Shown: piece after piece, positions 9,070-57,119 of the stretch | Layout: every line of letters starts with the position of its first letter | Numbering within the stretch: position 1 is the first letter of the stretch | IMG/VR virus record: IMGVR_UViG_3300050821_010968 | Coordinates: 1 to 64,000 of that record | Source: a virus | Length of the DNA: 64,000 bases | Direction: 5' to 3' (one strand) | Translations under genes and position numbers: made by a program | Notes under the pieces: model-generated | Told to the model about the DNA's origin: nothing | The model's input: only the letters and a program-made list of their open reading frames with translations | Databases searched by the model: none

Positions 9070-9114
9070 TTGACCGAATCTCCGGACCTGCTATGAATCC
9101 CGACAGGTCGAGTC
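9070..9114 (+). promoter_or_regulatory. class I promoter of gcrA
   Basis: The -35 TTGACC (9070-9075) is followed by 16 nt and the -10 TATGAA (9092-9097). Only the right half-site of the palindrome is good (CGACA, 9101-9105). Three GANTC sites are nearby: GAATC at 9076 in the spacer, GAATC at 9095 overlapping the -10, and GAGTC at 9110. GANTC over core promoter elements is how GcrA/CcrM-dependent promoters look in Caulobacter, so autoregulation is likely (inference). Confidence 0.75.
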
Positions 9115-9125
9115 GGAGAATAAAT

Positions 9126-9647
9126 GTGACTGCCACGAATTGGACGGACGCACAGGTTGCAATCTTGCGCGAGCTATGGCCCACGAGCACATCGGCGACC
9201 GATATCGGAACCATGTGCGGGAAAACCAAACGGGCGGTCATAGGTAAAGCAGACCGCCTCAACCTCGGAGAAAAACTCCAGCGCAATCTTCACAAGCAAC
9301 GCCCAAACGCGCGAAAGAAAATCGTACCTACTGTCGAGGCTCAGATTTCCGTAGAGCCCGCCGAAGAAAAAGAAGAGGACGAGGATGATTACGGGTTGCC
9401 AAAATTTTCTGTTGACGTGTCAACGGACGCCGATCCTGATTTCCCAGTGACGCTGGAACAGCTTGAGCATGGGATGTGTCGTTGGCCGATTGGAGATTCG
9501 CAAACCGAGGATATTCGCTTTTGTGGGCAGTCGAGTAGAGGAAAGCCTTTCTGCGACTCACATGATGCAAAAGCCTATACGCCGCATCGTGGAAAATCGG
9601 CAGCATATTCTCCTCCACGGCAGCGACGTTTCGGAGGTTACCGGTGA
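9126..9647 (+). CDS. gcrA: GcrA-family cell-cycle/methylation-dependent regulator
   Basis: GcrA proteins bind sigma70-RNA polymerase and stimulate promoters carrying CcrM-methylated GANTC sites in Alphaproteobacteria. Residues 4-40 (TNWTDAQVAILRELWPTSTSATDIG...AVIGKADRLNLG) match the N-terminal helix-turn-helix domain. Near the end, MCRWPIGD and FCGQSSRGKPFCDSHDAKAY match the conserved C-terminal domain that contacts sigma. The middle is a Lys-rich then acidic linker. At 173 residues it has normal length. I placed the start at the GTG 9126: it follows GGAGA and begins with the family's usual WTD stretch, whereas the ATG at 9093 lies inside the -10 box. Its stop overlaps the next start (GTGA). 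Confidence 0.93.
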   Translation: MTATNWTDAQVAILRELWPTSTSATDIGTMCGKTKRAVIGKADRLNLGEKLQRNLHKQRPNARKKIVPTVEAQISVEPAEEKEEDEDDYGLPKFSVDVSTDADPDFPVTLEQLEHGMCRWPIGDSQTEDIRFCGQSSRGKPFCDSHDAKAYTPHRGKSAAYSPPRQRRFGGYR

Positions 9648-10276
9648 GAGATTTGGCGATCTATCTTGATCTCGATGGCGTGATGGCAAATTACGATGAA
9701 GGAATTCGCGATCTCGGCTTCAATCCTGATCCTGCAAAAAAGAACGAACTGAATCGGTCAGGATCGAAAGACCCCTTCAAAAGGGTAATGTACGAGGCGA
9801 TTCGCGGCACAGAGTTTTATCGCGACTTGCCGTTGATGCCCGGAGCGGTCGAACTTTATCGGACCATAAAAGATGCCGATCCCATCATTGTAACGGCGGC
9901 TCCGAAATTCGGCAGTACTGAGGATGACTACTATTTGAATCCTTACTGGCTGGGGGCTGCATACCATAAGCGGTACTGGACCGAATATACGCTTCTACCG
10001 CAAGCTCTCTCATATGAAGTCCTGCACGCTGGCGAGACGGTTCCAGTTCTAAAAGACGAACGCATTCCTATTCCGGATACGCGTTTTATATGCACGACTT
10101 CGGCGCGCAAACAGGAATTCATGCATCGCAAGCATAGTCCTCATCAACTGCTCATCGATGATCGCAAAGCCAATTGTGAGAACTGGATCGCAGCCGGTGG
10201 CTACGCAATTCTCCACGTAGATGCCGAGACCACAATCGCCCAACTCAAAGCTTATAGGATGGCCCATGCAAGCTGA
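9644..10276 (+). CDS. HAD-superfamily phosphatase, 5'(3')-deoxyribonucleotidase-like
   Basis: A 210-residue protein. Residues 6-12 hold the nucleophile motif LDLDGVM; IIVTAAPK near residue 85 fits HAD motif II (Thr); and LLIDDRKANCENW near residue 168 fits the acidic motif IV. The size and the NxD-type cap resemble NT5C-type nucleotidases, which dephosphorylate dNMPs, so a role in nucleotide pool control is likely, though the substrate cannot be read from sequence. GTG start overlapping the gcrA stop. Confidence 0.8.
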   Translation: MRDLAIYLDLDGVMANYDEGIRDLGFNPDPAKKNELNRSGSKDPFKRVMYEAIRGTEFYRDLPLMPGAVELYRTIKDADPIIVTAAPKFGSTEDDYYLNPYWLGAAYHKRYWTEYTLLPQALSYEVLHAGETVPVLKDERIPIPDTRFICTTSARKQEFMHRKHSPHQLLIDDRKANCENWIAAGGYAILHVDAETTIAQLKAYRMAHAS

Positions 10277-10697
10277 AATGATAGAAGTTTCCGCCACCGA
10301 CCCTGATAGTGAAGTCATCGTCCGATTTCCAAAGGATCAGTGCGTTTCTTTTCCGAATATGCAGGCGCTGATCGGTGCTTCCGATACACTTGCCAGTCTT
10401 TCGAACTGCTGGCGAGCCGATCTCGACCATGGTAAAGCCGAGGGGATTCGCAAAGAGATCGCAAATGCTATCGTCGATAGGGTTCGCGAAAAGCTGGCTC
10501 AAGAGAGCCCACAGGCTGCCGCACAGTTTCCCGATGTCTATATGGGCACCCAATGGACCATCATAGCCCATGAAACACCAGACGGCATCAAAGCCGGAAT
10601 CGAAGTCCATGTTGGTCATCTCATCAATACGATTGCCGAGCTTCTAGGCCCTTTGGATGGCGGACTCCTGCCCAAGTCTTCTGAAAAACGTCATTGA
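10266..10697 (+). CDS. hypothetical protein
   Basis: A 143-residue acidic soluble protein (MQAEMIEVSATDPDSEVIVRF...). The chosen ATG lies 11 nt inside the previous gene, with AGGA 6 nt upstream; the ATG at 10278 is the alternative. The C-terminal half contains IKAGIEVHVGHLINTIAELLG. No family recognised. Confidence 0.7.
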   Translation: MQAEMIEVSATDPDSEVIVRFPKDQCVSFPNMQALIGASDTLASLSNCWRADLDHGKAEGIRKEIANAIVDRVREKLAQESPQAAAQFPDVYMGTQWTIIAHETPDGIKAGIEVHVGHLINTIAELLGPLDGGLLPKSSEKRH

Positions 10698-10700
10698 CGA

Positions 10701-10895
10701 ATGGGTAATATCGCGGACGACTTCGCGTTAATCGCGAAGAACTTAAAGCGCCTACAAAATCCGGAGGAAGAACGATTAGCGGATTATTGCGCGCGTTGTG
10801 ACAACGGAGGATGGGTCCAGATATGGAGCCCGCGTCCGCCAGCATTTGGGATATGCCCAGATTGTTACAACCCAATGGAATACCCTTCGCCATGA
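10701..10895 (+). CDS. small zinc-ribbon protein
   Basis: A 64-residue protein: a helical N-terminus, then CARCDNGGWVQ and ICPDCYNP. The two CxxC pairs about 20 residues apart form a likely zinc ribbon. It starts 3 nt after the previous stop and its own stop overlaps the next start. Confidence 0.7.
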   Translation: MGNIADDFALIAKNLKRLQNPEEERLADYCARCDNGGWVQIWSPRPPAFGICPDCYNPMEYPSP

Positions 10896-11272
10896 AGGAT
10901 TTCATGACATTCGTCGCAAAAGAATTTGATGGCACACACTTGCGGCATATACATTTCGTTCGTTGCCCACGAAGTCATGCTCCCGGAGGCTATCGCTCCA
11001 TTTTAAGTTTAGAGGCGTTTCGCGGGAGAGAACGAGATAGATTAAACGTTCGACATCGTCGTCGGGATAAATTGGGACGCTGGTTCTATGTAATTCAATT
11101 CTACGATTACATGACTGAGAAAATCGGAGTTCGACAAACCTTTGCAGACCTAGGCATTCCGCGTCAGCCTTCGGCTCCTTATACCAAACATTCTTCAATA
11201 TGGGATTTTTACATAGCAATTGGGTATGACTACAAGAAGAAGCGTTACGGAAAACTCAGAATTCCCGATTGA
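10892..11272 (+). CDS. basic hypothetical protein
   Basis: A 126-residue, strongly basic protein (MKDFMTFVAKEFDGTHLRHIHFVRC...) with runs such as RHRRRDKLGRWFY and a C-terminal YDYKKKRYGK. The charge suggests nucleic-acid contact, but no fold is recognised. The ATG at 10892 overlaps the previous stop (ATGA); upstream ATGs in frame lie within that gene. A class I promoter overlaps its last codon. Confidence 0.65.
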   Translation: MKDFMTFVAKEFDGTHLRHIHFVRCPRSHAPGGYRSILSLEAFRGRERDRLNVRHRRRDKLGRWFYVIQFYDYMTEKIGVRQTFADLGIPRQPSAPYTKHSSIWDFYIAIGYDYKKKRYGKLRIPD

Positions 11273-11303
11273 CATCCGACAGAAACTGTCCTTAACTATG
11301 ACA
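11269..11303 (+). promoter_or_regulatory. class I promoter, the one copy without GANTC
   Basis: -35 TTGACA (11269-11274), spacer 17-18 nt, -10 TTAACT/TAACTA (11292-11298) inside the palindrome TGTCC-N7-TGACA (11287-11303). No GANTC lies between the operator and the ATG at 11318. A second GACAG...CTGTC pair sits in the spacer. Confidence 0.75.
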
Positions 11304-11317
11304 TCAGGGAGGCTGCT

Positions 11318-11557
11318 ATGTTTGGGCTACTCGTCGGTGCACACCAGATCATGTCATTAAATCCGGATGGCGGAAGAGCCCTCAGCGATTATGAAATCTG
11401 GTGCCGCGAGAAGGGTTGCCAGCATGCGCACTGTCCCTGCTATTGTGACCATCCGCAGCCTTTCCTTCACGATGGGAAGCTTGTATGTGGGGAGTGTGCC
11501 ATCGTGGACGGCAACTTCTGTGAAATGATTCCCTGTTATCCGGAGACCTGCGAGTGA
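11318..11557 (+). CDS. cysteine-rich small protein
   Basis: A 79-residue protein with eleven Cys, arranged in part as CQHAHCPCYC, VCGECAI and FCEMIPCYPETC, so probably one or two zinc sites. GGGAGG precedes the ATG and it is the first gene after a class I promoter. Function unknown. Confidence 0.7.
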   Translation: MFGLLVGAHQIMSLNPDGGRALSDYEIWCREKGCQHAHCPCYCDHPQPFLHDGKLVCGECAIVDGNFCEMIPCYPETCE

Positions 11558-11760
11558 TAGAATATAGAAAGCCAAGCGAAACGCCGACCAAAGATGGCTG
11601 CTACTACGCCAGATTCGACGAGGAAGAAGATGGAAACATCGAAATCGTCGAGGTCGCTTTTCATCGGGATGCACATGTTTGGCGCTTCGGCGTGACCTTC
11701 CCGGCAAGACTTGACCAATTTACGTGGTTCGGTAGTGTGCGTGAAATTCAGGAGGGGTAG
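11554..11760 (+). CDS. small acidic protein
   Basis: A 68-residue protein (MIEYRKPSETPTKDGCYYARF...) starting at a GTG that overlaps the previous stop. Short beta-like segments around an EEEDG turn, ending FTWFGSVREI. Small phage proteins with this TPxxxGxYxARxxE...FTWFG appearance are common and unassigned. A class II promoter begins at the base after its stop. Confidence 0.65.
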   Translation: MIEYRKPSETPTKDGCYYARFDEEEDGNIEIVEVAFHRDAHVWRFGVTFPARLDQFTWFGSVREIQEG

Positions 11761-11790
11761 TTGACAACCCACGCCAGCCAATGGTAGGGA
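11761..11790 (+). promoter_or_regulatory. class II promoter with the conserved block inverted in the spacer
   Basis: -35 TTGACA (11761-11766), 18 nt, -10 TAGGGA (11785-11790). Here the class II block sits in the spacer and reads on the opposite strand (CCATTGGCTGGCGTGGGTTG, 11784-11765). Because TTGACAA and TTGTCAA are mutual complements, the same block can supply the -35 in either orientation. Confidence 0.7.
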
Positions 11791-11812
11791 TCGTTAACCT
11801 CGAAGGTCTGCC

Positions 11813-12079
11813 ATGAAAGTCACGTGGGAAATCTCAGATATAAAGTGCGGACGCCGCGCCCGAAAACCGGGAACGAGCGAGACACTAATCATTGGATATG
11901 ACGCTTCGATTGAGCCGCGAACCATACATGACGCTCCAGCAAATCGAACGATCACGTCGTTATCCGATGGATCGCTGATCGCGCAACGTCTCAACAATCA
12001 AGAGGTGGCCGAATTCCTGAATAAGTCCGAGCTATTACCTCTCGAACTTCTTCCAGAGATCACAATTCAGGTCGGATGA
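11813..12079 (+). CDS. hypothetical protein
   Basis: An 88-residue, beta-rich protein beginning MKVTWEISDIKCGRRARKPG and ending ELLPEITIQVG. It starts 23 nt after a -10 box, with GAAGG upstream. Function unknown. Confidence 0.7.
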   Translation: MKVTWEISDIKCGRRARKPGTSETLIIGYDASIEPRTIHDAPANRTITSLSDGSLIAQRLNNQEVAEFLNKSELLPLELLPEITIQVG

Positions 12080-12080
12080 G

Positions 12081-12383
12081 ATGCTCGTCGGAATTCTAGG
12101 GGGAATTTGCGTTATTGAGGCTTTCGTCCTCATAATGAATTATTTCCAACTCCGGTCATGTGTGCAAGCTTTTATCGAGATAGAGCAGTCCGTCCGCAAA
12201 GTCATGGCGTTGGCCTTAGAAGAAGAAAATTTATACCTTGCAAACATTACACACCATAAAGAACAGAATAGTTTTTTAAAGAACGACATGCTCGTCGAAC
12301 AGAAAAAACGTCTTGCGGCTGAGAAACGTCTCGCCGAACTACTCAAAGAATCACAACCCAAACAAGAGAAGAAAGCACCATGA
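12081..12383 (+). CDS. membrane-anchored coiled-coil protein
   Basis: A 100-residue protein with one N-terminal hydrophobic span (about residues 3-21, LVGILGGICVIEAFVLIMN), followed by a long charged helix to the end that is likely to form a coiled coil. The overall shape resembles an inner-membrane spanin-like or scaffold protein, but it lies far from the lysis genes, so no role is assigned. Starts one base after the previous stop. Confidence 0.7.
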   Translation: MLVGILGGICVIEAFVLIMNYFQLRSCVQAFIEIEQSVRKVMALALEEENLYLANITHHKEQNSFLKNDMLVEQKKRLAAEKRLAELLKESQPKQEKKAP

Positions 12384-13072
12384 GCGAACAAGCTTGGGGG
12401 CATGGAGGCTTGCGTGGTTGGGGGCCATACGAACTCATGTTGCGAGAACACGCGCAGGAGAGATTTGTCTCTGCGATCCGTTCCACTCTGCTCCAACTGA
12501 ATAGTGCATGGAATTTCGACCGGGTTGAAGGTCCGATACTCATGCCGCGCTCTTTTATCAGCCCGTCCTATGACGGCGATGATGTATGGCTGCTTCAGGC
12601 GAAGCTGGGAGAAGACGAGGCTGTTCTGCGTCCCGAGACTACAGCGTACAGCTACGAAGCCGCAAAGACGTTGCTGATGCGTGGTGATCGCAAAATGCCT
12701 CTGTGTGTCTGGCAAGTCGGCAAGTCATTTCGGCGCGAACAGAGCGATGGGGCGACCGCTGCGAAATTGCGCTTTTACGAATTCACACAATTGGAATTCC
12801 AGTGTCTCTATTCACCAAGAACACTCGCCGATTATCGTTCAGCGGTCGTCGAGCAGATGTACAATACGATTGCCAGTCTCACACATCTCTCAACGCGGTT
12901 CGTGACAAGCGACCGTCTTCCATCCTATTCGACGAAAACGGAAGACGTTGAAGTGGAATGGAATGGACGGTGGACAGAGATGTGCAGTATCTCCGACCGT
13001 ACAGACTATCCGGATGCCAAGGTTTTAGAGGTCGCCATCGGGCTAGACCGGATCGTGAGTTGTCACGGATGA
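12380..13072 (+). CDS. class II aminoacyl-tRNA synthetase core, glycyl-tRNA synthetase-like
   Basis: A 230-residue stand-alone catalytic core. It shows LRPETTAYSYEAAKTLL (83-99), like the LRPETAQG segment of dimeric GlyRS; WQVGKSFRREQ (111-121), which is class II motif 2 with the ATP-binding Arg; RFYEFTQLEF (131-140), like REFTQAEIE of GlyRS; and AIGLDRI (219-225), motif 3. There is no anticodon-binding domain, and GlyRS is normally about twice as long. Such paralogues (HisZ, AsnA, PoxA types) often lose aminoacylation or act on other substrates, so the product may charge, edit or modify something other than tRNA-Gly. ATGA overlaps link it on both sides. Confidence 0.88.
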   Translation: MSEQAWGHGGLRGWGPYELMLREHAQERFVSAIRSTLLQLNSAWNFDRVEGPILMPRSFISPSYDGDDVWLLQAKLGEDEAVLRPETTAYSYEAAKTLLMRGDRKMPLCVWQVGKSFRREQSDGATAAKLRFYEFTQLEFQCLYSPRTLADYRSAVVEQMYNTIASLTHLSTRFVTSDRLPSYSTKTEDVEVEWNGRWTEMCSISDRTDYPDAKVLEVAIGLDRIVSCHG

Positions 13073-13533
13073 ACCGCGACGAAACTTTGGTCGATCTCAT
13101 CGAGAGATTGGCGAAGACCAAGACTCAGAAATTTCATCGCTATTGGCATCCCGATAGTGAACTATGCGCCGACATCGCTCGCTGCGCCGGAACCTATCGT
13201 GATTATGATCGTCGGCAAACCTATCCGAATTATCTCGATAATCTCAGCGAAGCGTGGGGATTGATTCCGGATAACTATCTGGTTTCGGAAGTCAGTGACG
13301 TGCAAATGAAACGAACTGAAACTATCGAAGCCACTGAGTTTATCGTCACGAAGTCAGATCACTGGTACATCAGCCTGATTCCAGAAAATTCTACGCTTCC
13401 TCAATTCATTAAGAAGGGGGAAGAGTTAATCTGGCCGAGCGCCTCTCATATCAATCTATGTTATGCGGTATGTCTTGTCGCGCTAAAAGCACGACTCGCA
13501 AATGTCCGCGCAGGAGTGGAGATACAAACATGA
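13069..13533 (+). CDS. hypothetical protein
   Basis: A 154-residue protein (MNRDETLVDLIERLAKTKTQ...) starting within the stop of the synthetase-like gene. The middle is rich in aromatic and acidic residues (HPDSELCADIARCAGTYRDYD). The tight coupling suggests it works with the synthetase-like core, but there is no recognised domain. Confidence 0.7.
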   Translation: MNRDETLVDLIERLAKTKTQKFHRYWHPDSELCADIARCAGTYRDYDRRQTYPNYLDNLSEAWGLIPDNYLVSEVSDVQMKRTETIEATEFIVTKSDHWYISLIPENSTLPQFIKKGEELIWPSASHINLCYAVCLVALKARLANVRAGVEIQT

Positions 13534-14069
13534 TCAAGACCGCACGCTACAACGGCAAGGAAGGCTTCGAGGCCATATGTCACGTCTGTACAAAGCGTTC
13601 GTTCTTTCCAAGCCGAAAACGATTACCGGATCAGGTCGTCTCGAAAAAGTTTCGACAGGGCGGCTGGGAAGTCAACCAGAACGGCAAAGATGTTTGCCCA
13701 AAGTGCATCAAAGAACGCTCCGAAAGAGTGACTCCGGAAAACCGTGTATACGCAGCGGCTCCAGAAGAATTACCGCTCAATGCGTCGAATGTCACTCGCG
13801 TGATTTCTACATGCGGCGTCCCCGCTCCTCAAGTCGTCGAGCTTGAGCATAAGTCATGCCGGAAATTCGAAATCAAATTTCTCGGACATGCCGAAGTCCA
13901 GTTTGGGCAACTTCTTCATGCCGAAGGCGAAGTTCTTCGCATCTTCAATACAAAACGAAAATCCAGTTACATACGTGCAAAGCTGGAACATACCGAAGAT
14001 ACGAGCAGCATGAAGCTCAATACCGGCCTGTCATGGTTCCTGACGCTTGAACCGAATCTGCCCGCATGA
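13530..14069 (+). CDS. zinc-ribbon hypothetical protein
   Basis: A 179-residue protein. The first 60 residues hold ICHVCTKRSFF and VCPKCIKER, two CxxC pairs about 30 apart, forming a zinc ribbon. The C-terminal part is a beta-rich domain (KFEIKFLGHAEVQFG). The ATG at 13530 overlaps the preceding stop. Function unknown. Confidence 0.7.
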   Translation: MIKTARYNGKEGFEAICHVCTKRSFFPSRKRLPDQVVSKKFRQGGWEVNQNGKDVCPKCIKERSERVTPENRVYAAAPEELPLNASNVTRVISTCGVPAPQVVELEHKSCRKFEIKFLGHAEVQFGQLLHAEGEVLRIFNTKRKSSYIRAKLEHTEDTSSMKLNTGLSWFLTLEPNLPA

Positions 14070-14356
14070 GACGCCCTCGCGATAATCACGGGCACTTTAT
14101 TCCGCTGGAGTGTCCTTTCGCCGATTGCGGCGCTGGCATTCTCGTCGAGGATAGCGACGGCGTTTGGCGCTGTAACGGGCTCATCGATCCCGGCAACAAT
14201 GAACCGCTTGAAGCATGCCCTTTCAATCATACCGATGGCGAGCCGTATATTGCCGGATCGACTGTGAAGGAATGGATGGCGTGGTTTGCGGAATGGTATC
14301 GCAGAGAACGTGAACGTGGGGACGAAAAACTCGCCGCAAAAGGTCTTGCTTACTAG
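14066..14356 (+). CDS. small zinc-binding protein
   Basis: A 96-residue protein with ECPFADCGAGI, WRCNG and ACPFNHTDG, four Cys plus His that could form one zinc site, then a helical tail (EWMAWFAEWYRRERERGDEK). ATGA overlap with the previous gene. Function unknown. Confidence 0.65.
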   Translation: MRRPRDNHGHFIPLECPFADCGAGILVEDSDGVWRCNGLIDPGNNEPLEACPFNHTDGEPYIAGSTVKEWMAWFAEWYRRERERGDEKLAAKGLAY

Positions 14357-14365
14357 GAGGACGCG

Positions 14366-14575: not shown

Positions 14576-14609
14576 GCCGAAAAATTCTCAAACCCGCGTT
14601 AACCAATAT

Positions 14610-14660
14610 TTGACACCCTGATTTAGGACAGGTAGTGTCGCGAACCCTGACATAGGATTC
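14610..14660 (+). promoter_or_regulatory. class I promoter of the DHH/dCMP/HNH operon
   Basis: -35 TTGACA (14610-14615), 17 nt, -10 TAGTGT (14633-14638). The palindrome TGTCG-N7-TGACA (14636-14652) overlaps the -10 and the start point, and GATTC follows at 14656-14660. Confidence 0.8.
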
Positions 14661-14663
14661 GCA

Positions 14664-17217: not shown

Positions 17218-17224
17218 GAAAATT

Positions 17225-17257
17225 TTTAAATCCCGACACTTGCGGTCAGATAGAATC
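17225..17257 (+). promoter_or_regulatory. weak class I-like promoter
   Basis: A -10-like TTTAAA (17225-17230), followed by the right half-site CGACA (17234-17238) and GAATC (17253-17257), mirrors the order seen at gcrA and at 57067. The -35 (TTCTCA, 17 nt upstream) is poor and no left half-site is visible, so this is tentative. Confidence 0.4.
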
Positions 17258-17299: not shown

Positions 17300-17836
17300 A
17301 TGGCTGCCAAATCCAAACCGCTGGTTCTGGGCTGCGACGCAATCGACACAGCAACCGGCTGCAAAGGTCGGCTGACAATTCGCTATGATCAGTTCAATGG
17401 GAACATCATGTGGGCTCTCCAGCCCATGGTTCCCAAAGGCAAAAACGAAATCCCGGAAGCCTACTTCATCGATCACTTTACTCTCCGACGCACGGGCGAC
17501 GGCGTTTCAGGGTCTGTTCCGCCCATCGACGACACTGTTACGATCCAGATCGGCGATAAAGTCGAGGATATACTCACTCACTATCAAGGCGTTGTGATGG
17601 AAAAATGTACCTATCTCAATGGGTGCGTACGCTTTTCCGTCCATGGGGAAATTCCCAAAGACAGCGAAAATGGTCTTCCGCCAAAGGGAATTGCGTTCGA
17701 ACACCAGCGCCTCAAACGTATCGGAGAGGGTATTCCACGGCCTGAAGGCGCGGAGCCGGAAAAAGCCGGACAGAAATCTGACAAAAGACCCACTGGTGGT
17801 CCAAGCTTCAAAGTGAGTTCTCTGGAACGGCGCTGA
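17300..17836 (+). CDS. hypothetical protein
   Basis: A 178-residue protein (MAAKSKPLVLGCDAIDTATG...), with a beta-rich first 120 residues and a Lys/Gly/Pro-rich, probably disordered, tail. The ATG at 17300 has AAGGGG upstream; the frame continues further up but without a site. It stands as a single-gene unit between a weak promoter and two hairpins. Some beta-rich phage proteins of this length are carbohydrate- or nucleic-acid-binding, but no match is claimed. Confidence 0.75.
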   Translation: MAAKSKPLVLGCDAIDTATGCKGRLTIRYDQFNGNIMWALQPMVPKGKNEIPEAYFIDHFTLRRTGDGVSGSVPPIDDTVTIQIGDKVEDILTHYQGVVMEKCTYLNGCVRFSVHGEIPKDSENGLPPKGIAFEHQRLKRIGEGIPRPEGAEPEKAGQKSDKRPTGGPSFKVSSLERR

Positions 17837-17911: not shown

Positions 17912-17956
17912 TTGACTTTTCCGACTGGTCCGGTCATAAAGATCGACAGAGGATTC
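17912..17956 (+). promoter_or_regulatory. class I promoter with imperfect palindrome
   Basis: -35 TTGACT (17912-17917), 17 nt, -10 CATAAA (17935-17940). The operator is GGTCA-N7-CGACA (17932-17948), with one changed left-arm base, followed by GATTC at 17952-17956. It starts immediately after a terminator-like hairpin. Confidence 0.7.
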
Positions 17957-20495: not shown

Positions 20496-20538
20496 TTGGC
20501 TCTCGCTAGTTGACAATGAAATCCTAGTTCGGTATACC
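20496..20538 (+). promoter_or_regulatory. class II promoter of the ardC operon
   Basis: TTGGCTCTCGCTAG runs into the -35 TTGACA (20510-20515), followed by 17 nt and the -10 TATACC (20533-20538). The ArdC start codon is 33 nt after the -10. No GANTC in the leader. Confidence 0.75.
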
Positions 20539-20571: not shown

Positions 20572-21564
20572 ATGGCAAAGAAGAGCTTCAAAAAGTCCTC
20601 AAAAACCGAGGCCGAGACCCCGAAAATCGACCTTTACGAGAAGGTCACGCAATCCATCATCAATGCCCTCGAAGCCGGTGTGCGCCCGTGGATGCGCCCA
20701 TGGAACGGCCCGGAGGGTTGTGGTGGGCTGCCGATCCGCGCCAATGGGCAATTTTACAGCGGCATCAACGTGGTGCTTCTGTGGACGGCTGCCGAGGTCA
20801 AAGGCTTCTCGAATGCCCGCTGGATGACCTTCAATCAGGCCAAGGAGCTTGGCGGCATGGTTCGCAAGGGCGAAAAGGCAACCATGATCGTCTATGCCAG
20901 CCGATTCGTGCCCAAAGACGAGAAGGCGCGCGCCGAGCGCGACGGTGACAAGGCCCGCGAAATCTCCATGCTCAAGCAATATTTCGTCTTCAACGTCGAG
21001 CAGGTCGAAGGGCTGCCGGAAAACTATTACGGTAAGCCTTCCAAGACGCCAGAGACGACCAAGGCGAAACTGGAACGCCTCGATCACATCGAAGCGTACT
21101 TCGCCGCTACGAAGGCTGATGTTCGCCATGGCGGCAATCAGGCCTTCTGGTCGCCGGGCGAAGACTTCATCAAACTGCCCGAACTCGATACCTTCAAGGA
21201 TGTCGAATCCTATTACGCCACGAAGGGTCACGAGTTTGTCCATTGGACAGGCGGCAAAAGCCGTCTCAATCGCGACTACTCAACCCGTTTCGGGTCCGAG
21301 GCGTACGCGGCGGAAGAACTCGTCGCCGAAATGGGATCGGCATTTCTCTGCGCCGTCCTCGGCATCACGCCGGAGGTTCGCGAGGACCATGCGCAATATC
21401 TCGGTCACTGGCTGAAAGTCCTGCGCGACGACAAACGCTTCATCTTCACGGCTGCGGGTGCAGCACAGAAAGCCGTTACGTTCCTCAACGGATTCAGCGG
21501 CACTAAGGATGTCATACCGGAGAACGATGAGCCGAGCGAAACCGAAGCGCAGGAGGCCGCATGA
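20572..21564 (+). CDS. ArdC-like antirestriction protein (ssDNA-binding domain plus metallopeptidase)
   Basis: A 330-residue protein. Residues 20-150 match the ArdC N-terminal domain (YEKVTQSIINALEAG...PWMRPWN, GINVVLLW, W-MTFNQAKELG, VRKGEKATMIVY), which binds single-stranded DNA. The C-terminal domain is a zinc peptidase with GHEFVHW (HExxH at 220-224) and AEELVAEMGSAFL giving the third ligand. The family protects incoming DNA from restriction. AAGGGG sits 8 nt before the ATG; upstream in-frame ATGs lie before the promoter and are not used. Confidence 0.93.
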   Translation: MAKKSFKKSSKTEAETPKIDLYEKVTQSIINALEAGVRPWMRPWNGPEGCGGLPIRANGQFYSGINVVLLWTAAEVKGFSNARWMTFNQAKELGGMVRKGEKATMIVYASRFVPKDEKARAERDGDKAREISMLKQYFVFNVEQVEGLPENYYGKPSKTPETTKAKLERLDHIEAYFAATKADVRHGGNQAFWSPGEDFIKLPELDTFKDVESYYATKGHEFVHWTGGKSRLNRDYSTRFGSEAYAAEELVAEMGSAFLCAVLGITPEVREDHAQYLGHWLKVLRDDKRFIFTAAGAAQKAVTFLNGFSGTKDVIPENDEPSETEAQEAA

Positions 21565-25467: not shown

Positions 25468-25657
25468 CAAGCATCAAACGAGACTCTGCATGATCGTCTT
25501 TATAGGCGCTCTTCTCATGCTCGTGGCTTATGACGTTGGAAGTCTTCTCGTGGTTTGCCCGGACAAGACACGCACACTGACCGATTGCGCTTTGGCGGCG
25601 ATCTTCGGCTATGCGATTTCCGAACAAATTCTCGGCATCATGAGAGATTCGAGATGA
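25454..25657 (+). CDS. small membrane protein
   Basis: A 67-residue protein with one strong span at residues 13-32 (MIVFIGALLMLVAYDVGSLL) and a weaker hydrophobic segment near the end. The ATG lies 14 nt inside the previous gene. Function unknown. Confidence 0.65.
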   Translation: MTFLSKHQTRLCMIVFIGALLMLVAYDVGSLLVVCPDKTRTLTDCALAAIFGYAISEQILGIMRDSR

Positions 25658-28130: not shown

Positions 28131-28166
28131 ATCGGTGGCTCGCTTTGATGAAGGCGAGTCACCGAT
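28131..28166 (+). terminator. strong hairpin, likely terminator
   Basis: ATCGGTGGCTCGC (28131-28143) pairs with GCGAGTCACCGAT (28154-28166) over 13 positions, one of them G-U, around a 10-nt loop. No T run follows; the -35 box of the next promoter begins 2 nt later. The G-U pair favours function on the plus strand. Confidence 0.6.
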
Positions 28167-28167
28167 A

Positions 28168-28219
28168 TTGACAGTTACTCAGGGTCAGTGTCTTATCCAC
28201 CGACACTCCTAATTGAGTC
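28168..28219 (+). promoter_or_regulatory. class I promoter of the SET gene
   Basis: -35 TTGACA (28168-28173); the -10 is TCTTAT (17-nt spacer) or TTATCC (19-nt). The palindrome TGTCT-N7-CGACA lies at 28189-28205 and GAGTC at 28215-28219. Confidence 0.75.
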
Positions 28220-34029: not shown

Positions 34030-34080
34030 CCTCTCGATTCGAATCCCATATGTCGGTTTTCTGGACATGTGGAAGGATTC
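34026..34080 (+). promoter_or_regulatory. class I promoter of the DUF7025-like AAA gene
   Basis: -35 TTGACC (34026-34031), 17 nt, -10 TATGTC (34049-34054), palindrome TGTCG-N7-GGACA (34051-34067), GATTC at 34076-34080. Two more GANTC sites (GATTC 34036, GAATC 34041) lie in the spacer, a layout like that of the gcrA promoter. Confidence 0.8.
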
Positions 34081-36903: not shown

Positions 36904-36951
36904 TTGACAGAGCCTGTCATAAAATCCGACACTCGCGCTTCTCAAGGATTC
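36904..36951 (+). promoter_or_regulatory. class I promoter of the BCS1-like gene
   Basis: The palindrome TGTCA-N7-CGACA (36915-36931) encloses a -10-like TAAAAT (36920-36925), and GATTC follows at 36947-36951. A TTGACA at 36904 is only 10 nt from that -10, so either the -35 is the weak TAGCCT 17 nt upstream or another -10 is used. An overlapping GACAG...CTGTC inverted repeat (36906-36918) adds a second possible binding site. Confidence 0.7.
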
Positions 36952-46141: not shown

Positions 46142-46174
46142 ATGTCGGTAACTTCGACAGGAAATGAGGGATTC
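46126..46174 (+). promoter_or_regulatory. class I promoter, near-leaderless
   Basis: -35 TTGCAC (46126-46131), 17 nt, -10 TAACTT (46149-46154) inside the palindrome TGTCG-N7-CGACA (46143-46159). Transcription should begin near 46161, 3 nt before the ATG. GATTC is at 46170-46174, within the first codons. Confidence 0.78.
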
Positions 46175-48325: not shown

Positions 48326-48372
48326 TTGACAGGGCATGACATGTCGATAAGCTCGACAGGTCGAAGGGATTC
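48326..48372 (+). promoter_or_regulatory. class I promoter of the CCA-type nucleotidyltransferase gene
   Basis: -35 TTGACA (48326-48331), 16 nt, -10 TAAGCT (48348-48353) inside the palindrome TGTCG-N7-CGACA (48342-48358); GATTC is at 48368-48372. One of the best matches to the class consensus. Confidence 0.82.
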
Positions 48373-49844: not shown

Positions 49845-49900
49845 GTTCTGGAAGGACGTGTGATTATGTCTGACAATTCTCAGCATGAAAAAGTCTACAA

Positions 49901-50543: not shown

Positions 50544-50554
50544 TCGGTGATCAC

Positions 50555-51217: not shown

Positions 51218-51259
51218 GGATAAAGACGTGAATATCGGATATTCCGTGAGTGATGCCTG

Positions 51260-51550: not shown

Positions 51551-51556
51551 GTCAGT

Positions 51557-51997: not shown

Positions 51998-52088
51998 GTT
52001 GAGCAGGTGTTACAGTCTTTTTAGTGCCATCCAATATCTTAGCTAGGAGCGCTGCAAGCTCTGGTCCTATTGTTTCATTTGTAGCCAT
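51921..52088 (-). CDS. small Lys/Ala-rich protein (55 residues)
   Basis: A 55-codon frame on the minus strand (MATNETIGPELAALLAKILDG...) with a strong TTGGAGGAACAG before its ATG. The end is KSPKKAAPKKK, like the tails of histone-H1-like or HU-type proteins, so DNA or RNA contact is possible. It is convergent with the end of the 51557 gene (77 nt shared). Confidence 0.65.
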   Translation of the reverse strand: MATNETIGPELAALLAKILDGTKKTVTPAQLKKIAAVALPHARGKSPKKAAPKKK

Positions 52089-52169
52089 CTGTTCCTCCAA
52101 TATGCGTTGCGAGCCATCTCTCGCAAATCACTATTTCTTATGTCATAATTTCCCTAGATCGGCCAAGCC

Positions 52170-52327
52170 GATTCGGGGCGTGAGAACCCCACACCTAACG
52201 GCTTTTGTGCAGCCGTGATCCAGCACTCCTCGACCGTATGGTCGGGGAGGCCGTCGCGCATGTTCAGGGCGAAAGCCTAAAGGCGGCGGCGAACCCGCTT
52301 AGGTGTGGTTTTCTCAACTCCCCGATC
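52170..52327 (+). other.  Confidence 0.
52170..52327 (+). ncRNA. structured RNA of unknown class, about 158 nt
   Basis: A long closing helix pairs 170-178, 181-186 and 189-198 (all +52000) with 320-327, 311-316 and 299-308, about 24 pairs broken by one internal loop and one 2x2 mismatch. Inside are three hairpins: CGGCT/AGCCG (52199-52215); CGACC-GTAT-GGTCG (52231-52244); and an 8-bp helix 52250-52257/52283-52290 topped by GGC-GAAA-GCC (52268-52277). This is a four-way-junction layout. Two U-G wobbles (52254/52286, 52230/52245) would be A-C mismatches on the other strand, so it is probably made from the plus strand. It ends 24 nt before the ATG of an exported protein, so it may be a leader element or a separate RNA. 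I do not recognise the class. Confidence 0.7.
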
Positions 52328-52350
52328 ACCAGTCGGAGGGCGGAGGGCCT

Positions 52351-52812
52351 ATGAAGGGTTGGATATTTGCGACGCTTGCATTTCTGATAACTCCAGCGAT
52401 TGGCGCAGAATTTACAGATGCAGACGGTGGGCAAGCGATAATCGCTGCATTTCGTGCGCACAGCGCGTTTGATAGTCAACTCATTGACTATCCAAGCGCG
52501 AGATTCCGTAACACCGTCGCGCACTATTTCATACGCTCTGATAATAAGAAGGCCTATTTCCTGTGTGGTGAGGTGAATTCGAAAAATGGGTTGGGTGGAT
52601 ACAGTGGGTGGGTGCCATTTCTCGTATCGGGAGATGGAACTGTAGAGCTTCCGGTAAACGGCATTGCTCCTTTTGTATCTGAAATCTGCGCGCCAGACGC
52701 AATTAATCCCACAGTCATCGACCATGTGCGTCCCGATTACAGCCAACTTCTGTATCAAAGCATGACGCCAGAAAAATTCGCCGAACAATTGGGATTGGTA
52801 AGCAAAAAATAG
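52351..52812 (+). CDS. exported protein, paralogue of 52943-53392
   Basis: A 153-residue protein with a signal peptide (MKGWIFATLAFLITPAIGA). The core SARFRNTVAHYF...AYFLCGEVNSKNGLGGYSGWVPFL is shared with the next protein (SARFRNVMA...FLFCGEVNAKNQLGGYVGFQPFL). Small periplasmic or outer-membrane proteins with this FCGEVNxKNxxGGY motif are common in Proteobacteria. GGAGGGCGGAGGG precedes the ATG, directly after the structured RNA. Confidence 0.75.
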   Translation: MKGWIFATLAFLITPAIGAEFTDADGGQAIIAAFRAHSAFDSQLIDYPSARFRNTVAHYFIRSDNKKAYFLCGEVNSKNGLGGYSGWVPFLVSGDGTVELPVNGIAPFVSEICAPDAINPTVIDHVRPDYSQLLYQSMTPEKFAEQLGLVSKK

Positions 52813-52942
52813 TTTCTATGACCGACGCGTCCCTGCTCAGTTCAGCGAGGACAGATCAAAGGATTATTCCGCACAAATGACCTACGCGGGAAAGTAGCGT
52901 TGACGTGTGCCAGATCAACCATTCGAGTTATGTGAGGGTTAA

Positions 52943-53392
52943 ATGCGCATTCTCCTCTGGGTAGCCATCATTATGATACCCGTTTTTGCTGGTGTTCTAT
53001 TTTTAGCGAGTAACACGAAGCAGTCGTTGCTCACGCCTGCGTCCGTACCAACAGCGGCCACAATTCCCGAGCCCCGTGATGATGCCGATCTAGCGAAGGA
53101 AGTTGCAAAAGAAACTCCCTCTACCGAAGAATTAATAAAATCCAAGCTCACCGATCCCGACAGCGCACGCTTCCGAAATGTTATGGCAGTGCGGCCCAAA
53201 TCATTTTCGTCAGGTTTTCTGTTCTGCGGTGAAGTGAACGCGAAGAATCAACTTGGAGGCTATGTGGGATTTCAGCCGTTTTTGGCAGTGGGGGAGACTG
53301 CGTATATCGTAACAGACGGTTCAATAGCAGAAAATCTGTTCAACAGTTTTTGTCTTCAGGGAAAACCGTTGATGAGAGTGTCGTTTAACTAG
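52943..53392 (+). CDS. membrane-anchored periplasmic protein, paralogue of 52351-52812
   Basis: A 149-residue protein: an N-terminal anchor (LLWVAIIMIPVFAGVLFLA), a Pro/Ala/Glu-rich linker, then KLTDPDSARFRN...FCGEVNAKNQLGGYVGF. It shares only the C-terminal domain with its neighbour. GAGGG precedes the ATG. Possibly an immunity or envelope protein; no evidence for either. Confidence 0.73.
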   Translation: MRILLWVAIIMIPVFAGVLFLASNTKQSLLTPASVPTAATIPEPRDDADLAKEVAKETPSTEELIKSKLTDPDSARFRNVMAVRPKSFSSGFLFCGEVNAKNQLGGYVGFQPFLAVGETAYIVTDGSIAENLFNSFCLQGKPLMRVSFN

Positions 53393-53522
53393 CGAAGCTG
53401 TCTGGAACTGGTGCAGATAGAAATTTGTGATATTTATCATGAATAGGTCTCAAAGCAGCGCTGGCAGGGTTTATTAGCCCTCTACTAATCTAAACTCGGT
53501 CACTACCAAGACGCTGTATTTT

Positions 53523-53551
53523 TTGACATGTACTTATCAATGTAGTAAAAT
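53523..53551 (+). promoter_or_regulatory. consensus-like sigma70 promoter in the island
   Basis: TTGACA (53523-53528), 17 nt, TAAAAT (53546-53551), followed by a perfect palindrome at 53562-53578. It has neither the class I operator nor the class II block, so it belongs to a different regulatory style from the rest of the window. It points at the tailspike remnant. Confidence 0.7.
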
Positions 53552-53561
53552 GTTCTTCTAG

Positions 53562-53578
53562 GCTAAAAAGTTTTTAGC
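53562..53578. repeat. perfect palindrome downstream of a promoter
   Basis: GCTAAAAAGTTTTTAGC: two 8-base arms around one base, 10 nt after the -10 box and across the region just downstream of the start point. A repressor site is the simplest reading. Confidence 0.5.
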
Positions 53579-53624
53579 GACGCGACGAAAACGCGCAATT
53601 CGTCAATCGAGAAAGATTATTGAG

Positions 53625-53816
53625 ATGGATAGGGTAAGACCGCGCAAGCGATCTGACTTCGCGGATAGGTGTCGGCCCGACGACAAGCAGGTCCCTGCGC
53701 TGGGTGAATTGAAGGTCTATGACCCGATGGACTATGGTGCAAAGGGGGATGGCGAAACCGATGACAGCAAGGCGTTTCGTGCGATTATGGATTTAGTGGC
53801 ACTTCGAAGTGAATAA
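53625..53816 (+). pseudogene. remnant of a tailspike-like protein (pectate-lyase-type N-terminal segment)
   Basis: A 63-residue frame in which LKVYDPMDYGAKGDGETDDSKAFRAIMDL matches the start of the pectate-lyase-3 type beta-helix of phage tailspikes and depolymerases (V.DFGAkGDGvtDDt.A...A). These proteins are normally several hundred residues; here the frame ends after 63, so the beta-helix is missing. It may be a decayed tailspike gene, or less likely a short adaptor. It follows its own good promoter. Confidence 0.65.
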
Positions 53817-54087
53817 TTGTATGCGCCTTATAAGCATCAGCTTGTCCACAGTGTGGACAAGCTAGCACCCAAGCGCCGTCACCACAAAAGCTGACGCTTT
53901 TCGACTTCAGAGTATCCTCCATCACCGCGATATTTTTACTACAGTAAGCGCACCCTACTCCGTAGTACCAATTTCCCGGTAATTCACCGGGCAAATCGGT
54001 TATTCTATAAAGACGGCCAAGTGGACCCATATCGACGGTATGTAAAATCATTTCATCCTCGGTCGAATATGTATCCGACTCTAACAT
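53785..54087 (-). CDS. zinc-ribbon protein in the island
   Basis: A 100-residue protein (MLESDTYSTEDEMILHTVDM...) with CAYCSKNIAV and ACPHCGQADAY, two CxxC pairs about 32 apart. The start is uncertain (ATG 54087 or GTG 54093) and no ribosome binding site is evident. Convergent with the tailspike remnant (32 nt overlap). Confidence 0.55.
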   Translation of the reverse strand: MLESDTYSTEDEMILHTVDMGPLGRLYRITDLPGELPGNWYYGVGCAYCSKNIAVMEDTLKSKSVSFCGDGAWVLACPHCGQADAYKAHTIIHFEVPLNP

Positions 54088-54203
54088 GACCACACAGTCC
54101 CTACGACATTAAACTATTTTTGTCGCGACCGTTTGGAAATTATGTTGGCTTGCGATTCTTTAGTTTTGGTTCCTTTTGCCGGGTAGTGTTTACTCTTCGC
54201 TCG

Positions 54204-55439
54204 CTATTTCCGTGTTGCTCGGAGAAGCTCTTTCATACGGGACTGACGCCCAACCTTGGCAGGCTGCTGTCGAGTGCGATACTTGCCCACCAGACAGATC
54301 GCGCATTCTGAGTAGTCGAATCGTGCAAGCGTGCGCGCGCACTCCAGCGCTTCTTCCTTAGTGTCGAACGCATACCAGACCGTGCGCTTCTGCACGCCGG
54401 GACGGCGTCCGCGCCCACGCTGGCAATTCCGACACGTGCTCAAGTGAAGCTTGGCTTCGGGCTTCACCGGGTCGAACATGACGAAGTGGGGCTTGTTCGA
54501 TTCTTCGCCCTCGCTAAGTGGCGTATAGGCTTGCGTGGACGTGATTTGTTTTACCTTTGGCTCGGCGCGTCCGAGCCAGTAGGTTTCGATCTCGTCCAAC
54601 AGATCATCATACGTCCAGACTCGATTTGTCACGCCTGCTTTCATGGCTGGAGTAAGAGAACACTCAGCCTTCCCCAAACCGGCATGCGCCTTCACAAAGT
54701 TGTAGTACGCGACGTAGATCGCCTGCGCGTGGCAATGGTTTTCGAACTTCTTGGAAAACCTGTATGTCCTTCGGTTGAAGCGGCTGATGTAATTGCGGAT
54801 CGTTCCGTTGTGCCTCTCAACGTAGCTCGTGGATGCTTTCAGAATCTCATCAGCATCGGCCTTGAGCGAGTATTTCTTGATGCCATATACGGTCACGAAG
54901 CTGTCACCGGTTTCTCGGTCCCACCCGCCTTTCATCTGTTTCTTAAGAATGACGTGCTTGGCGTTTGAGCCAAAAGCATCGTCGATTATGCGTGGATAAA
55001 CACTAAATGAATCTGTCGCGATAACCACGGGACCGGGAATGCGATTTCGTAAATCGCGAAAGAATTCTCGTCCAGTTGTGACATCACGTGTGCCAATGCG
55101 GACACTGACAAGGAGTTTGCTGTCAGGATCGATTGCGACCCATGACCACGCGTCCCCCACATGCTTGGGCTTGAAATTTTTCGGAAATTTGCACTGCCCG
55201 GCCATATATTGCTTGGCGTAGCAATATGACCAAATCTCGTCGGCTTCGATTCGTTTCGTGAGGTTGAGGCCGCGTACCTCCCTGTCATGGACATAGGCGA
55301 GTGCTTCGCCATTCATAGCAAGATGTCGCCGGACTGTGTTCATTGAACAGCCGGTAATTTCCGCGATGCCCCTGATGCCGTTATTGTTGCAGATCAGAAT
55401 GAGTATTTCGCGCCGCTTGGCTCTTGAAAGTTTTTTCAA
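54204..55439 (-). mobile_element. IS1-like DDE transposase with a C-terminal Cys extension
   Basis: A 411-residue protein. Residues 5-40 are a helix-turn-helix (RREILILICNNNGIRGIAEITGCSMNTVRRHL). The catalytic core has EADEIWSY (first Asp), ATDSFSVYPRII (second Asp) and SYVERHNGTIRNYISRFNRRTYRFSKKFENH, the VERxN...RRxxxxxxFSKKxENH signature of IS1-family transposases with the last Glu. About 95 extra C-terminal residues contain CRNCQRGRGRRPG and CAICLVGKY, which standard IS1 transposases lack. TTG start with GAGGG upstream. I could not find matching terminal inverted repeats, so this may be a domesticated or immobile copy. Confidence 0.85.
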
Positions 55440-55937
55440 TCGTGTCGCCCTCTTGAATGGCGACGCCCGATATTACCGCGTTAACCTAGGAATTCCGTTA
55501 AGCTCGCAAAGTTTTGCGCCTCTTTGATTTCCTTTTGCGCTTTGTACGGCCTTTTGATTCTTCGCACTCACCTAGCGCGAGGCGAATCACCATGATTCCC
55601 GACTTGATCGGGTCGCGGGGGCGGCTAGGATGCGCTGGCCGTTTGGGCATGGTGATCGATGTACGTCAGTCTAGGCGGTGGGGCAACGCGTATGCGGCTC
55701 TCACAAGTCGTCCTACGGCGGTCCGCTTATTGGACGCCACGATGCAAGGTACATTATTGATGGACCCTTGATAGACCCGTCGGCGACCGCGACGCATTGC
55801 GGATACGGACAGCGTCAACTTGGATAGCCGGAAGCGGAAAAGTTCGGTGGATTTTTTCACGGGGCACCTCTAGTCGAGGTGCCAAAAATGCAGGCGAAAG
55901 GCCGGGAAACAAGGAAACAGAGTTAGAGTCGGCCAAA
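55440..55937. other. about 500 bases without a convincing gene, right part of the island
   Basis: Short open frames on both strands here are Arg/Ser-rich, lack ribosome binding sites and overlap each other, so I call none. The stretch 55440-55560 is the upstream region of the transposase. The rest may be decayed sequence, and the regular phage gene style resumes at about 55938-56138. Confidence 0.5.
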
Positions 55938-56051
55938 ATGAGTCACCACCGCGAATGGGAAAGAATTGGCATTGGGCTGCGTATGGTGATAGTCATATTT
56001 ATGATTCTACCCTCCCAAAGCCTTTTCATATCTCGAATCACAAAAAGGTAA
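55938..56051 (+). CDS. possible 37-residue membrane peptide
   Basis: MSHHREWERIGIGLRMVIVI... with one hydrophobic segment (MVIVIFMILPSQSLFI) and a basic end. No clear ribosome binding site. It could be the first gene after the island or a remnant at its edge. Confidence 0.35.
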   Translation: MSHHREWERIGIGLRMVIVIFMILPSQSLFISRITKR

Positions 56052-56137
56052 CAGACCTGCGACCGATGAGCTATATCCACATTGAGAGGAAATATCCCGA
56101 TGTCAGCCAATAGCTCAAGCGTGTTGTGGACCGAGTA

Positions 56138-56206
56138 ATGATCTGGCGCGGTTTCTTCATCGTCTTGTCCGTCGTCGCTGTTTGCACGGCGATGCAGCTT
56201 TTGTGA
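56138..56206 (+). CDS. 22-residue membrane peptide
   Basis: MIWRGFFIVLSVVAVCTAMQ and two Leu: one hydrophobic helix. It lies 7 nt before the next membrane gene. Similar to the small peptides at 50555 and 50859, which suggests that the same kind of gene run continues after the island. Confidence 0.45.
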   Translation: MIWRGFFIVLSVVAVCTAMQLL

Positions 56207-56213
56207 GGCACAG

Positions 56214-56396
56214 ATGCTTTTCATCGTCGCATGGATTGTGACTGCGGCAGGTAGCTTCTATGCGTTCGACATTGGCGTGACGAGCCCGCGTCCGCTTGTC
56301 TATCGTAAGTGGGGTGCTCGTGGGTTTCTGACCGGCGTGCTACTACTCGCTTTGGCGTTCGTATTGATGTGTGTTCAAAACGGAGATTTCCAATGA
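56214..56396 (+). CDS. two-span membrane protein
   Basis: A 60-residue protein with spans at about residues 1-20 and 36-54 and a short basic loop between (RPLVYRKWGARG). The stop overlaps the next ATG. Function unknown. Confidence 0.64.
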   Translation: MLFIVAWIVTAAGSFYAFDIGVTSPRPLVYRKWGARGFLTGVLLLALAFVLMCVQNGDFQ

Positions 56397-56794
56397 CGAT
56401 GGAACACAAAATCGAACCGGTCCATTGCACCACGCTCGACATGGCTGCGCCGAAAGCAAACGCGACGCCGGAATTCCTCGCGGCATGCGATAAGTATTTC
56501 TACAATTTCGCAAAGCCAATCGTGCAGCAGGAAGGTGAGAAGGCATTGCTGTGTTTTCATTGCGGTGAAGCTTTGACCGGCTTGATGTCGATGATACTCG
56601 GCAGCGGTGGTTTTGAATGGGGTATTGTGCATGGTGAGGGTCGCTGCGCCGGATGTCATTGGCCTGCTCGGGCAAATCACTATGCCAAGAAGGAAGATGG
56701 GACCGAACTTTTTACGTTGACAGGATTCGTCTTGTGCTACCATCCGGATAATGTCGAAATGAAGACGATCAAGAGGAAGGCAAAAGGCGAATGA
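56393..56794 (+). CDS. zinc-binding hypothetical protein
   Basis: A 133-residue protein with LLCFHCGEALTG and RCAGCHWPARANHY, a Cys-Cys...Cys-Cys site with adjacent His residues, typical of a zinc ribbon. ATGA overlap before and after. Function unknown. Confidence 0.72.
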   Translation: MTMEHKIEPVHCTTLDMAAPKANATPEFLAACDKYFYNFAKPIVQQEGEKALLCFHCGEALTGLMSMILGSGGFEWGIVHGEGRCAGCHWPARANHYAKKEDGTELFTLTGFVLCYHPDNVEMKTIKRKAKGE

Positions 56795-57039
56795 AGTTCC
56801 GGAACATCTATGTTGCTGCGCGCAGCGACAATCTTTCATGGCTAACTGTTGCCATGAACGATGTCGAAGATACATTGCTCATCAGCACCAAGATCAACGA
56901 AAAGGACTCCAATACCGTCGAAAGTTATACGTGTTTCAAGATGATGCCGGAAGAGGCACAGAGGCTGTTTGCGGCTTTGGGCGAATATCTTTACGGCAAG
57001 GAATCGATGGCGAAAGTCAACGAGATCGTCGGTCAATGA
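56791..57039 (+). CDS. small hypothetical protein
   Basis: An 82-residue alpha/beta protein (MKFRNIYVAARSDNLSWLTV...), last gene before a class I-like promoter. Function unknown. Confidence 0.68.
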   Translation: MKFRNIYVAARSDNLSWLTVAMNDVEDTLLISTKINEKDSNTVESYTCFKMMPEEAQRLFAALGEYLYGKESMAKVNEIVGQ

Positions 57040-57066
57040 TTCCTTAACTATTTTCCTGCTACACCC

Positions 57067-57119
57067 TTGCGCGTCGCTCGGAACTGGTATCTATTCCCGA
57101 CAGGTCGCGCCTCGGACTC
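57067..57119 (+). promoter_or_regulatory. class I-like promoter with right half-site
   Basis: -35 TTGCGC (57067-57072), 15 nt, -10 TATCTA (57088-57093), half-site CGACA (57098-57102), GACTC at 57115-57119. TATCTATTCCCGACAGGTCG is nearly the same as the gcrA promoter core (TATGAATCCCGACAGGTCG), so the two may answer to the same factor. Confidence 0.62.

Follow-up and report, generated by a model that had tools for sequence, protein, structure and literature searches.

Non-random placement of GANTC sites at several kinds of promoter in a phiCbK-like phage with its own gcrA gene

GANTC is methylated in many alphaproteobacteria. Methylase-gated transcription is known from bacterial hosts and also, through Dam, from a few phage genes; the mom system of phage Mu, in which phage transcription is gated by host Dam adenine methylation, is an example. 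The GcrA of Caulobacter shows a preference for GANTC in its methylated form and an association with RNA polymerase, and at ctrA P1 it covers the -35 box together with the adjacent GANTC (PMC3667746, cited, like the other papers below, from its accessible part). Sites both upstream and downstream of promoters have been reported as functional, and no preference resembling YGAKTCK is reported for Brevundimonas in the accessible part of the same source (PMC7987155). That phages can carry GcrA has been known since phiCbK (2012), whose GcrA was proposed to alter the host cycle, raising host replication genes; the word GANTC is absent from the accessible part of that paper (PMC3556154). The present work concerns GANTC sites in a phage with its own gcrA gene, the viral record IMGVR_UViG_3300050821_010968 (IMG/VR; 156,272 bp in total). 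The stretch called the window here comprises positions 1 to 64,000 of this record.

Twelve promoters in the window, referred to as class I, were described in an earlier note as sharing a half-site, which is the right half of a palindromic operator, TGTC-N9-GACA. The right half is present in all twelve, but the left half is not clear at 9110, 17253 and 57115. As the note had stated, a GANTC site lies 3–15 nt past GACA in 11 of the 12, and its eleven GANTC coordinates are all exact. The sole exception is the promoter at 11269.

2333..2358, minus strand: rtcB promoter, operator 2342-2358, GANTC 2333-2337
9070..9114, plus strand: gcrA promoter, -35 TTGACC, -10 TATGAA (by eye), right half-site CGACA, GANTC at 9076, 9095 and 9110
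11287..11303, plus strand: operator TGTCCTTAACTATGACA, the exception without GANTC
14636..14660, plus strand: class I site, operator 14636-14652, GANTC 14656-14660
17253..17257, plus strand: GANTC (GAATC), 14 nt past the half-site CCCGACA, start codon downstream at 17300
17932..17956, plus strand: class I site, one-mismatch operator 17932-17948, GANTC 17952-17956
28156..28219, plus strand: class I site, GANTC 28156-28160 (12 nt upstream of TTGAC at 28168), operator 28189-28205, GANTC 28215-28219
34036..34080, plus strand: class I site, spacer GANTC at 34036 and 34041, operator 34051-34067, GANTC 34076-34080
36915..36951, plus strand: class I site, operator 36915-36931, GANTC 36947-36951
46143..46174, plus strand: class I site, operator 46143-46159, GANTC 46170-46174 (among the opening codons if translation begins at 46164)
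48342..48372, plus strand: class I site, operator 48342-48358, GANTC 48368-48372
57115..57119, plus strand: GANTC (GACTC), 12 nt past the half-site CCCGACA

The placement of GANTC at class I promoters is non-random and is not due to the position of the Shine-Dalgarno sequence, a doubt that the earlier note had itself raised. Equally distant windows drawn from 79 other genes (5000 draws) give a mean of 1.13 of 12 and a maximum of 6, and ribosome-site position is therefore not the explanation. Local shuffling gives a mean of 0.61 of 12. Since the twelve promoters had been picked by the reader after inspection, the set was re-picked by rule, requiring a perfect TGTC-N9-GACA with a non-coding centre and a start codon no more than 260 nt away. 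This excluded eight of the 22 perfect operators in the record (six inside called genes, two without a start within 260 nt). Nine of the remaining 14 carry GANTC (7/9 in the window, 2/5 outside it) against a background of approximately 7–9%. Ten more operator sites outside the window, five perfect and five with one mismatch, and mostly at late promoters, carry GANTC in three cases (null 0.59, P 0.017). Around 17 non-coding operators, GANTC is found 12 times at 8–26 nt, where 3.8 are expected, and twice at 27–45 nt, where the expectation is again 3.8.

The sites themselves vary. In class I, seven of the 11 GANTC sites have T at the middle position, two have G, and A and C occur once each; the flanks vary. 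Nine of them lie at most 18 nt upstream of the start codon or just beyond it, and six contain GGATTC. Gene starts were called with a simple purpose-built caller, with two placed by hand (46164 and 11319); on these calls, 8/12 class I starts have GANTC, versus 24/203 of the remaining starts outside 72–80.5 kb. Across the record, non-coding DNA holds 1.54 GANTC sites per 256 positions (1.49 once tRNA genes are excluded) and coding DNA 0.93, a ratio that is the highest among eight palindromes. If the -10 boxes placed by eye hold, class I GANTC would fall within -40 to +40 of the transcription start, the range expected of GcrA/CcrM-dependent promoters.

GANTC marks several promoter kinds in this phage, each at its own position, because class II promoters, the starts at 72–80.5 kb and a set of TTGAC boxes also carry it. 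The claim that GANTC is tied to a single promoter class is thus not supported. Class II promoters have the form TTGGC..GTTGACAA, and the statement that none of nine has GANTC before the start codon stands for the nine taken to be meant in the window, but not outside it. There, of eight GTTGACAA sites in non-coding DNA, six are accompanied by GANTC within the 85 nt examined, directly before the start codon in five of the six. Between 72 and 80.5 kb, GANTC lies within -25 to +3 of 10 of the 11 called starts, several of them after class II promoters; nine read GGAGTC, in leaders that end in AGGAGTC and look copied. The third set comprises eight non-coding TTGAC boxes with GANTC 12 nt upstream, where 0.77 are expected, the best result of 16 palindromes in this record. 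Seven of the eight sites read GAGTC and one GACTC; one of these boxes, at 28168, is that of a class I promoter, and structural genes follow several of them.

Two further observations belong here. At 72.8–80 kb lies a block of small genes, some arranged as divergent pairs, whose promoters resemble one another (TTGGCT-N6-GGTTGACAAT) and whose leaders end in AGGAGTC. In the window, an ArdC-like anti-restriction protein with a metallopeptidase domain is encoded at 20572-21564, downstream of the class II promoter at 20509.

The phage is classed as phiCbK-like (Dolichocephalovirinae) on its common capsid, portal, terminase, scaffold and tail genes. The major capsid protein shares 79.7% identity with its phiCbK counterpart, and orthologues of the portal, terminase, scaffold and tail genes are present in phiCbK, Domovoi and Bajun. 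A search of genome_contigs with the capsid gene recovered no host. The gcrA gene stands, as the earlier note had it, behind the class I promoter with three GANTC sites.

9126..9647, plus strand: gcrA, encoding a phage GcrA of 173 aa, PF07750 at 89.4 bits, N-terminal and C-terminal parts both there

Its product belongs to the PF07750 family (residues 5–157; curated cut-off 26.9) and aligns with PDB 7ye1 over residues 2–159, as well as with 5yiu (N-terminal) and 5yix (C-terminal), so that both halves of Caulobacter GcrA are covered. We take the N-terminal part to be DNA-binding and the C-terminal part to be sigma-binding. By tblastn, GcrA matches turn up in 31 records of the phage collection, of which 26 are Caulobacter phages. 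The closest described counterpart, phiCbK gp222, is a GcrA of the same Pfam family and the same phage group, with 32.7% identity. The methyltransferase profile PF01555 has no match in any of 12 phage records, some of which may be fragments, other methyltransferase families not having been searched; methylation would therefore be host-supplied. Elsewhere in the record, 27 distinct tRNA genes lie at 110–125.5 kb (15 and 13 in two overlapping loci, one common), and these contain 20 GANTC sites.

The association of GANTC with the -35 box extends to relatives. One script was run on 12 phages and then on Cp1R7A-A1 and T5, with deduplicated non-coding TTGAC boxes as anchors, offsets from -55 to +70 except -4 to +4 (which overlap the -35), and 15 palindromes of the same form for comparison. 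GANTC is locked to a fixed offset in nine of 13 related phages, at lineage-specific offsets and at rank 1–3 of the 16 palindromes in those nine; the phages are related, and so represent few independent events. The counts are observed versus expected, and the P values are corrected for offsets, not for the 16 palindromes or 14 phages.

phiCbK, offset -5: 17 vs 0.33
Rogue, offset -5: 11 vs 0.19
Bajun, offset -5: 14 vs 0.51
G007, offset -6: 9 vs 0.85
Colossus, offset -5: 7 vs 0.57
V10, offset +14: 6 vs 0.34
MD18, offset +15: 5 vs 0.36, weak, P 0.005
RcXuper, offset +15: 4 vs 0.29, weak, P 0.028
this phage, offset -12: 8 vs 0.77

The usual rival palindrome is TGNCA, which is a part of the operator. 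T5, whose host we presume to lack CcrM, shows no lock (rank 4, 21 anchors). Just outside the tested offsets, TTGACTC places GANTC at +2 in CcrSC (13 vs 0.51, partly in duplicated ends) and seven times in this phage. GANTC is denser in non-coding DNA in 12 of 12 phages, with 0.29–0.62 sites per 256 in the called genes of 11 of them and 0.93 in this phage.

Dependence of the lock on phage GcrA is not shown, because it is present in 5/6 phages whose GcrA match covers most of the profile (G006 is the exception), in 1/2 with the N-terminal half only, and in 3/5 with none; hosts could supply GcrA. A tie between the two was suggested by GANTCTTGAC, found 20 times in Rogue versus 0–4 in seven others, and was dropped, as Colossus, V10, RcXuper and G006 do not fit. 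The proposal in the earlier note that GANTC goes with the phage's own GcrA is likewise not borne out by the relatives, among which GcrA-less V10 has GANTC next to the operator as well.

The operator is real. TGTC-N9-GACA occurs in 22 copies in the record, while spacings from 0 to 20 other than nine give 0–7 copies and the reversed pattern one. By eye, it lies on or just past the -10 in class I promoters, whereas late genes have it on the -35 or further upstream. The palindrome of these 22 sites (e.g., 2342, 14636 and 48342 in the window) recurs in phiCbK-like phages and in relatives from Ruegeria, Rhodobacter and Phaeobacter, whether or not a GcrA match is present. In phiCbK (NC_019405), operator pairs 22 bp apart occur at 25476, 94002, 101254 and 107208, the second copy being degenerate, by eye, at the last three.

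The possibility that the operator is a GcrA site was raised by its 21–22 copies in phiCbK, MD18 and this phage, set against GcrA-less G004 (7), G005 (2) and three Rhizobium phages (3, 2 and 2). It was ruled out by V10, RcXuper and CcrSC, with 39, 26 and 14 copies, respectively, and no GcrA match in any of them. Because relatives without a GcrA match have as many copies, the operator is best assigned to a regulator other than GcrA. A candidate binder, encoded at 150850-151431 (minus strand) of the record, gives winged-helix hits that are weak and below the cut-off; it is present in 7/10 phages, with none in MD18, V10 or RcXuper.

The pairing of operator and GANTC differs among relatives. Next to the operator, this phage and V10 (14 vs 6.0) show an enrichment of GANTC that G006 (0 vs 2.6), MD18 (1 vs 2.5), Domovoi (0 vs 1.3), G007 (2 vs 1.8) and RcXuper (3 vs 2.4) do not. 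The class I arrangement is therefore not general. Inside the operator, GANTC occurs in 9/19 cases in phiCbK (0.6 sites expected) and in 5/10 in Rogue (0.2 expected).

At some orthologous late genes, GANTC is retained at a shifted position. The portal promoter has it at -13 here and at -5 in phiCbK and Bajun; the scaffold promoter at -12 here and at -5 in phiCbK, Bajun and Domovoi; the promoter at 148789 at -6 here and at -5 in the same three phages; and the promoter at 152075 at -12 here and at -5 in phiCbK. Counted plainly, GANTC lies within 20–25 nt of TTGAC at 9/19 orthologous promoters here, 9/13 in phiCbK, 6/14 in Bajun, 3/15 in Domovoi, 3/16 in Colossus, 2/14 in G006 and 1/9 in CcrSC, with six other palindromes at 0–3/19 here. 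As the non-coding DNA of this phage is richer in GANTC throughout, this count is weak evidence, and fixed offsets weigh more. Among loci recovered for comparison, L010 carries GAATC at -5 of the scaffold promoter and L009 carries none there; L008, at 99.98% identity, is uninformative. In rtcB upstream DNA, examined in 36 of 80 loci, the operator stands at the promoter only in L135 and L157 (G006). An IMG/VR search with two class I proteins found no close relatives, nor did a megablast of 24.9 kb against phages. The late promoters at 96.9 and 129.7 kb, and the orthologous places in phiCbK, Domovoi and Bajun, have TTGAC followed approximately 17 nt on by a conserved TAGGGT-like -10 (by eye).

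These features could be brought together as follows. The promoters would be of the sigma70 type, with two separate elements, the palindromic operator and a CcrM-type GANTC. TGTC-N9-GACA is the lineage-wide operator, which a regulator other than GcrA would bind. Its place on the -10 suggests repression of the class I set, where a bound protein would repress; for late genes, with the operator on the -35 or further upstream, either activation or repression could result. GANTC, just downstream of the operator in class I and 12 nt upstream of TTGAC in the second set, would be methylated by host CcrM. GcrA of the phage, the host or both, on sigma70-RNA polymerase, would then help to open methylated promoters. 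Promoter strength would track methylation state, dropping when the copying of phage DNA outpaces remethylation by CcrM.

It is quite possible, though we would stop short of calling it probable, that these phages have CcrM/GcrA-type sites built into their sigma70 promoters, where GANTC is read through methylation. Several observations weigh against this. Outside the window, only three of ten operator sites carry GANTC, and the lack of enrichment beside the operators of G006, MD18, Domovoi and G007 points the same way. Only 2/11 class I sites fit the Caulobacter motif YGAKTCK by inspection of 7-mers (CGAGTCG at 9110, in the gcrA promoter, is one that does), so the extended motif is not the rule. 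The rtcB promoters of phiCbK and Rogue (one operator mismatch each) and of G006 retain the operator without GANTC, while Domovoi has GANTC before rtcB, and the operator is not there. No significant lock is found in G006, which has a GcrA match, in Domovoi or CcrSC (rank 10 each), or in Cp1R7A-A1 (rank 13); conversely, Colossus, V10 and RcXuper show a lock without a GcrA match. In phiCbK, 18/20 such sites read GAATC, and a longer motif may include the GANTC of that phage. In Caulobacter, mutation of GANTC left ctrA P1 activity unchanged (PMC3667746), and no positional asymmetry emerged when phage genomes were scanned for GcrA-type sites, according to the accessible part of that study (PMC9437464).

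Some of these points lend themselves to another explanation, on the doubtful side but to be taken seriously, that GANTC is a by-product of the operator or its flanks, of an extended -35 (TCTTGACA), or of an AGGATTC or AGGAGTC Shine-Dalgarno sequence in copied leaders. GGATTC in six of the 11 class I sites and the common leader of nine genes at 72–80 kb would be expected on this account. So would the GAATC of phiCbK, which sits within a longer conserved TCGTGAATCTTGACA, and the -12 GAGTC here, which falls on a degenerate operator's left half. Domovoi, with AAATC ten times before TTGAC at the place of phiCbK's GAATC, also speaks against selection for GANTC as such. The explanation fits less well with the approximately 9% of equally distant windows at other starts that carry GANTC, or with the excess at class I starts over other starts; moreover, in class I the sites are found outside the operator, at no fixed spacing from it and with a varied N, and some orthologous promoters have GANTC at differing places between phages. 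Chance, together with selection by eye, is very improbable and was already disfavoured: the promoters were indeed picked after inspection, and agreement outside the window is limited to three of ten, but the rule-picked operators exceed the background and the lock is seen in other phages.

The hosts of these phages presumably have both GcrA and CcrM, and it is conceivable, if unlikely, that these alone read promoter GANTC, with phage GcrA acting on host genes and unrelated to the sites. The locks of Colossus, V10 and RcXuper without a GcrA match, and the match without a lock in G006, would agree with this, as would the proposal that phage GcrA raises host replication genes (Gill et al., PMC3556154). 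Against it, the three strongest locks (phiCbK, Rogue and Bajun) are in phages whose GcrA match covers most of the profile, and gcrA here is itself preceded by three GANTC sites. To return to methylation-read promoter sites, a wider version, which we consider rather unlikely, is that a lineage of large alphaproteobacterial phages places CcrM sites in early and late promoters, that some bring GcrA, and that replication-driven loss of methylation times the programme, as an epigenetic clock of a lytic phage.

If GANTC is functional here, the phage would have its genes under the gating control of a host cell-cycle methylase. Among the matches listed from the literature on GcrA, CcrM, phiCbK, Dolichocephalovirinae, and Dam and phages, no title or abstract opening deals with GANTC at phage promoters. 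phiCbK offers a test case, with GANTC directly upstream of 17 non-coding TTGAC boxes; a GcrA-depletion strain of its host exists (PMC3667746), as does an RNA-seq time course of its infection (PMC10688885).

Of the described systems, the GcrA/CcrM regulon of Caulobacter crescentus is alike in having GANTC in or beside sigma70 promoters and GcrA as the reader, and class I sites fit its pattern loosely. At ctrA P1, GANTC adjoins the -35, resembling the arrangement in phiCbK, Rogue and Bajun (PMC3667746). Class I sites differ in lying downstream of a phage operator and in being mostly GGATTC rather than YGAKTCK, and their methylation is predicted. The CtrA-controlled promoters of phiCbK, vB_BsubS-Delta and Cp1R7A-A1 likewise place a host cell-cycle regulator at phage promoters, but through CtrA sites, not methylation sites (PMC9437464). 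In Mu mom, the site is GATC, the methylase is Dam and few genes are involved, whereas here GANTC stands at many promoters, with a predicted function in their control.

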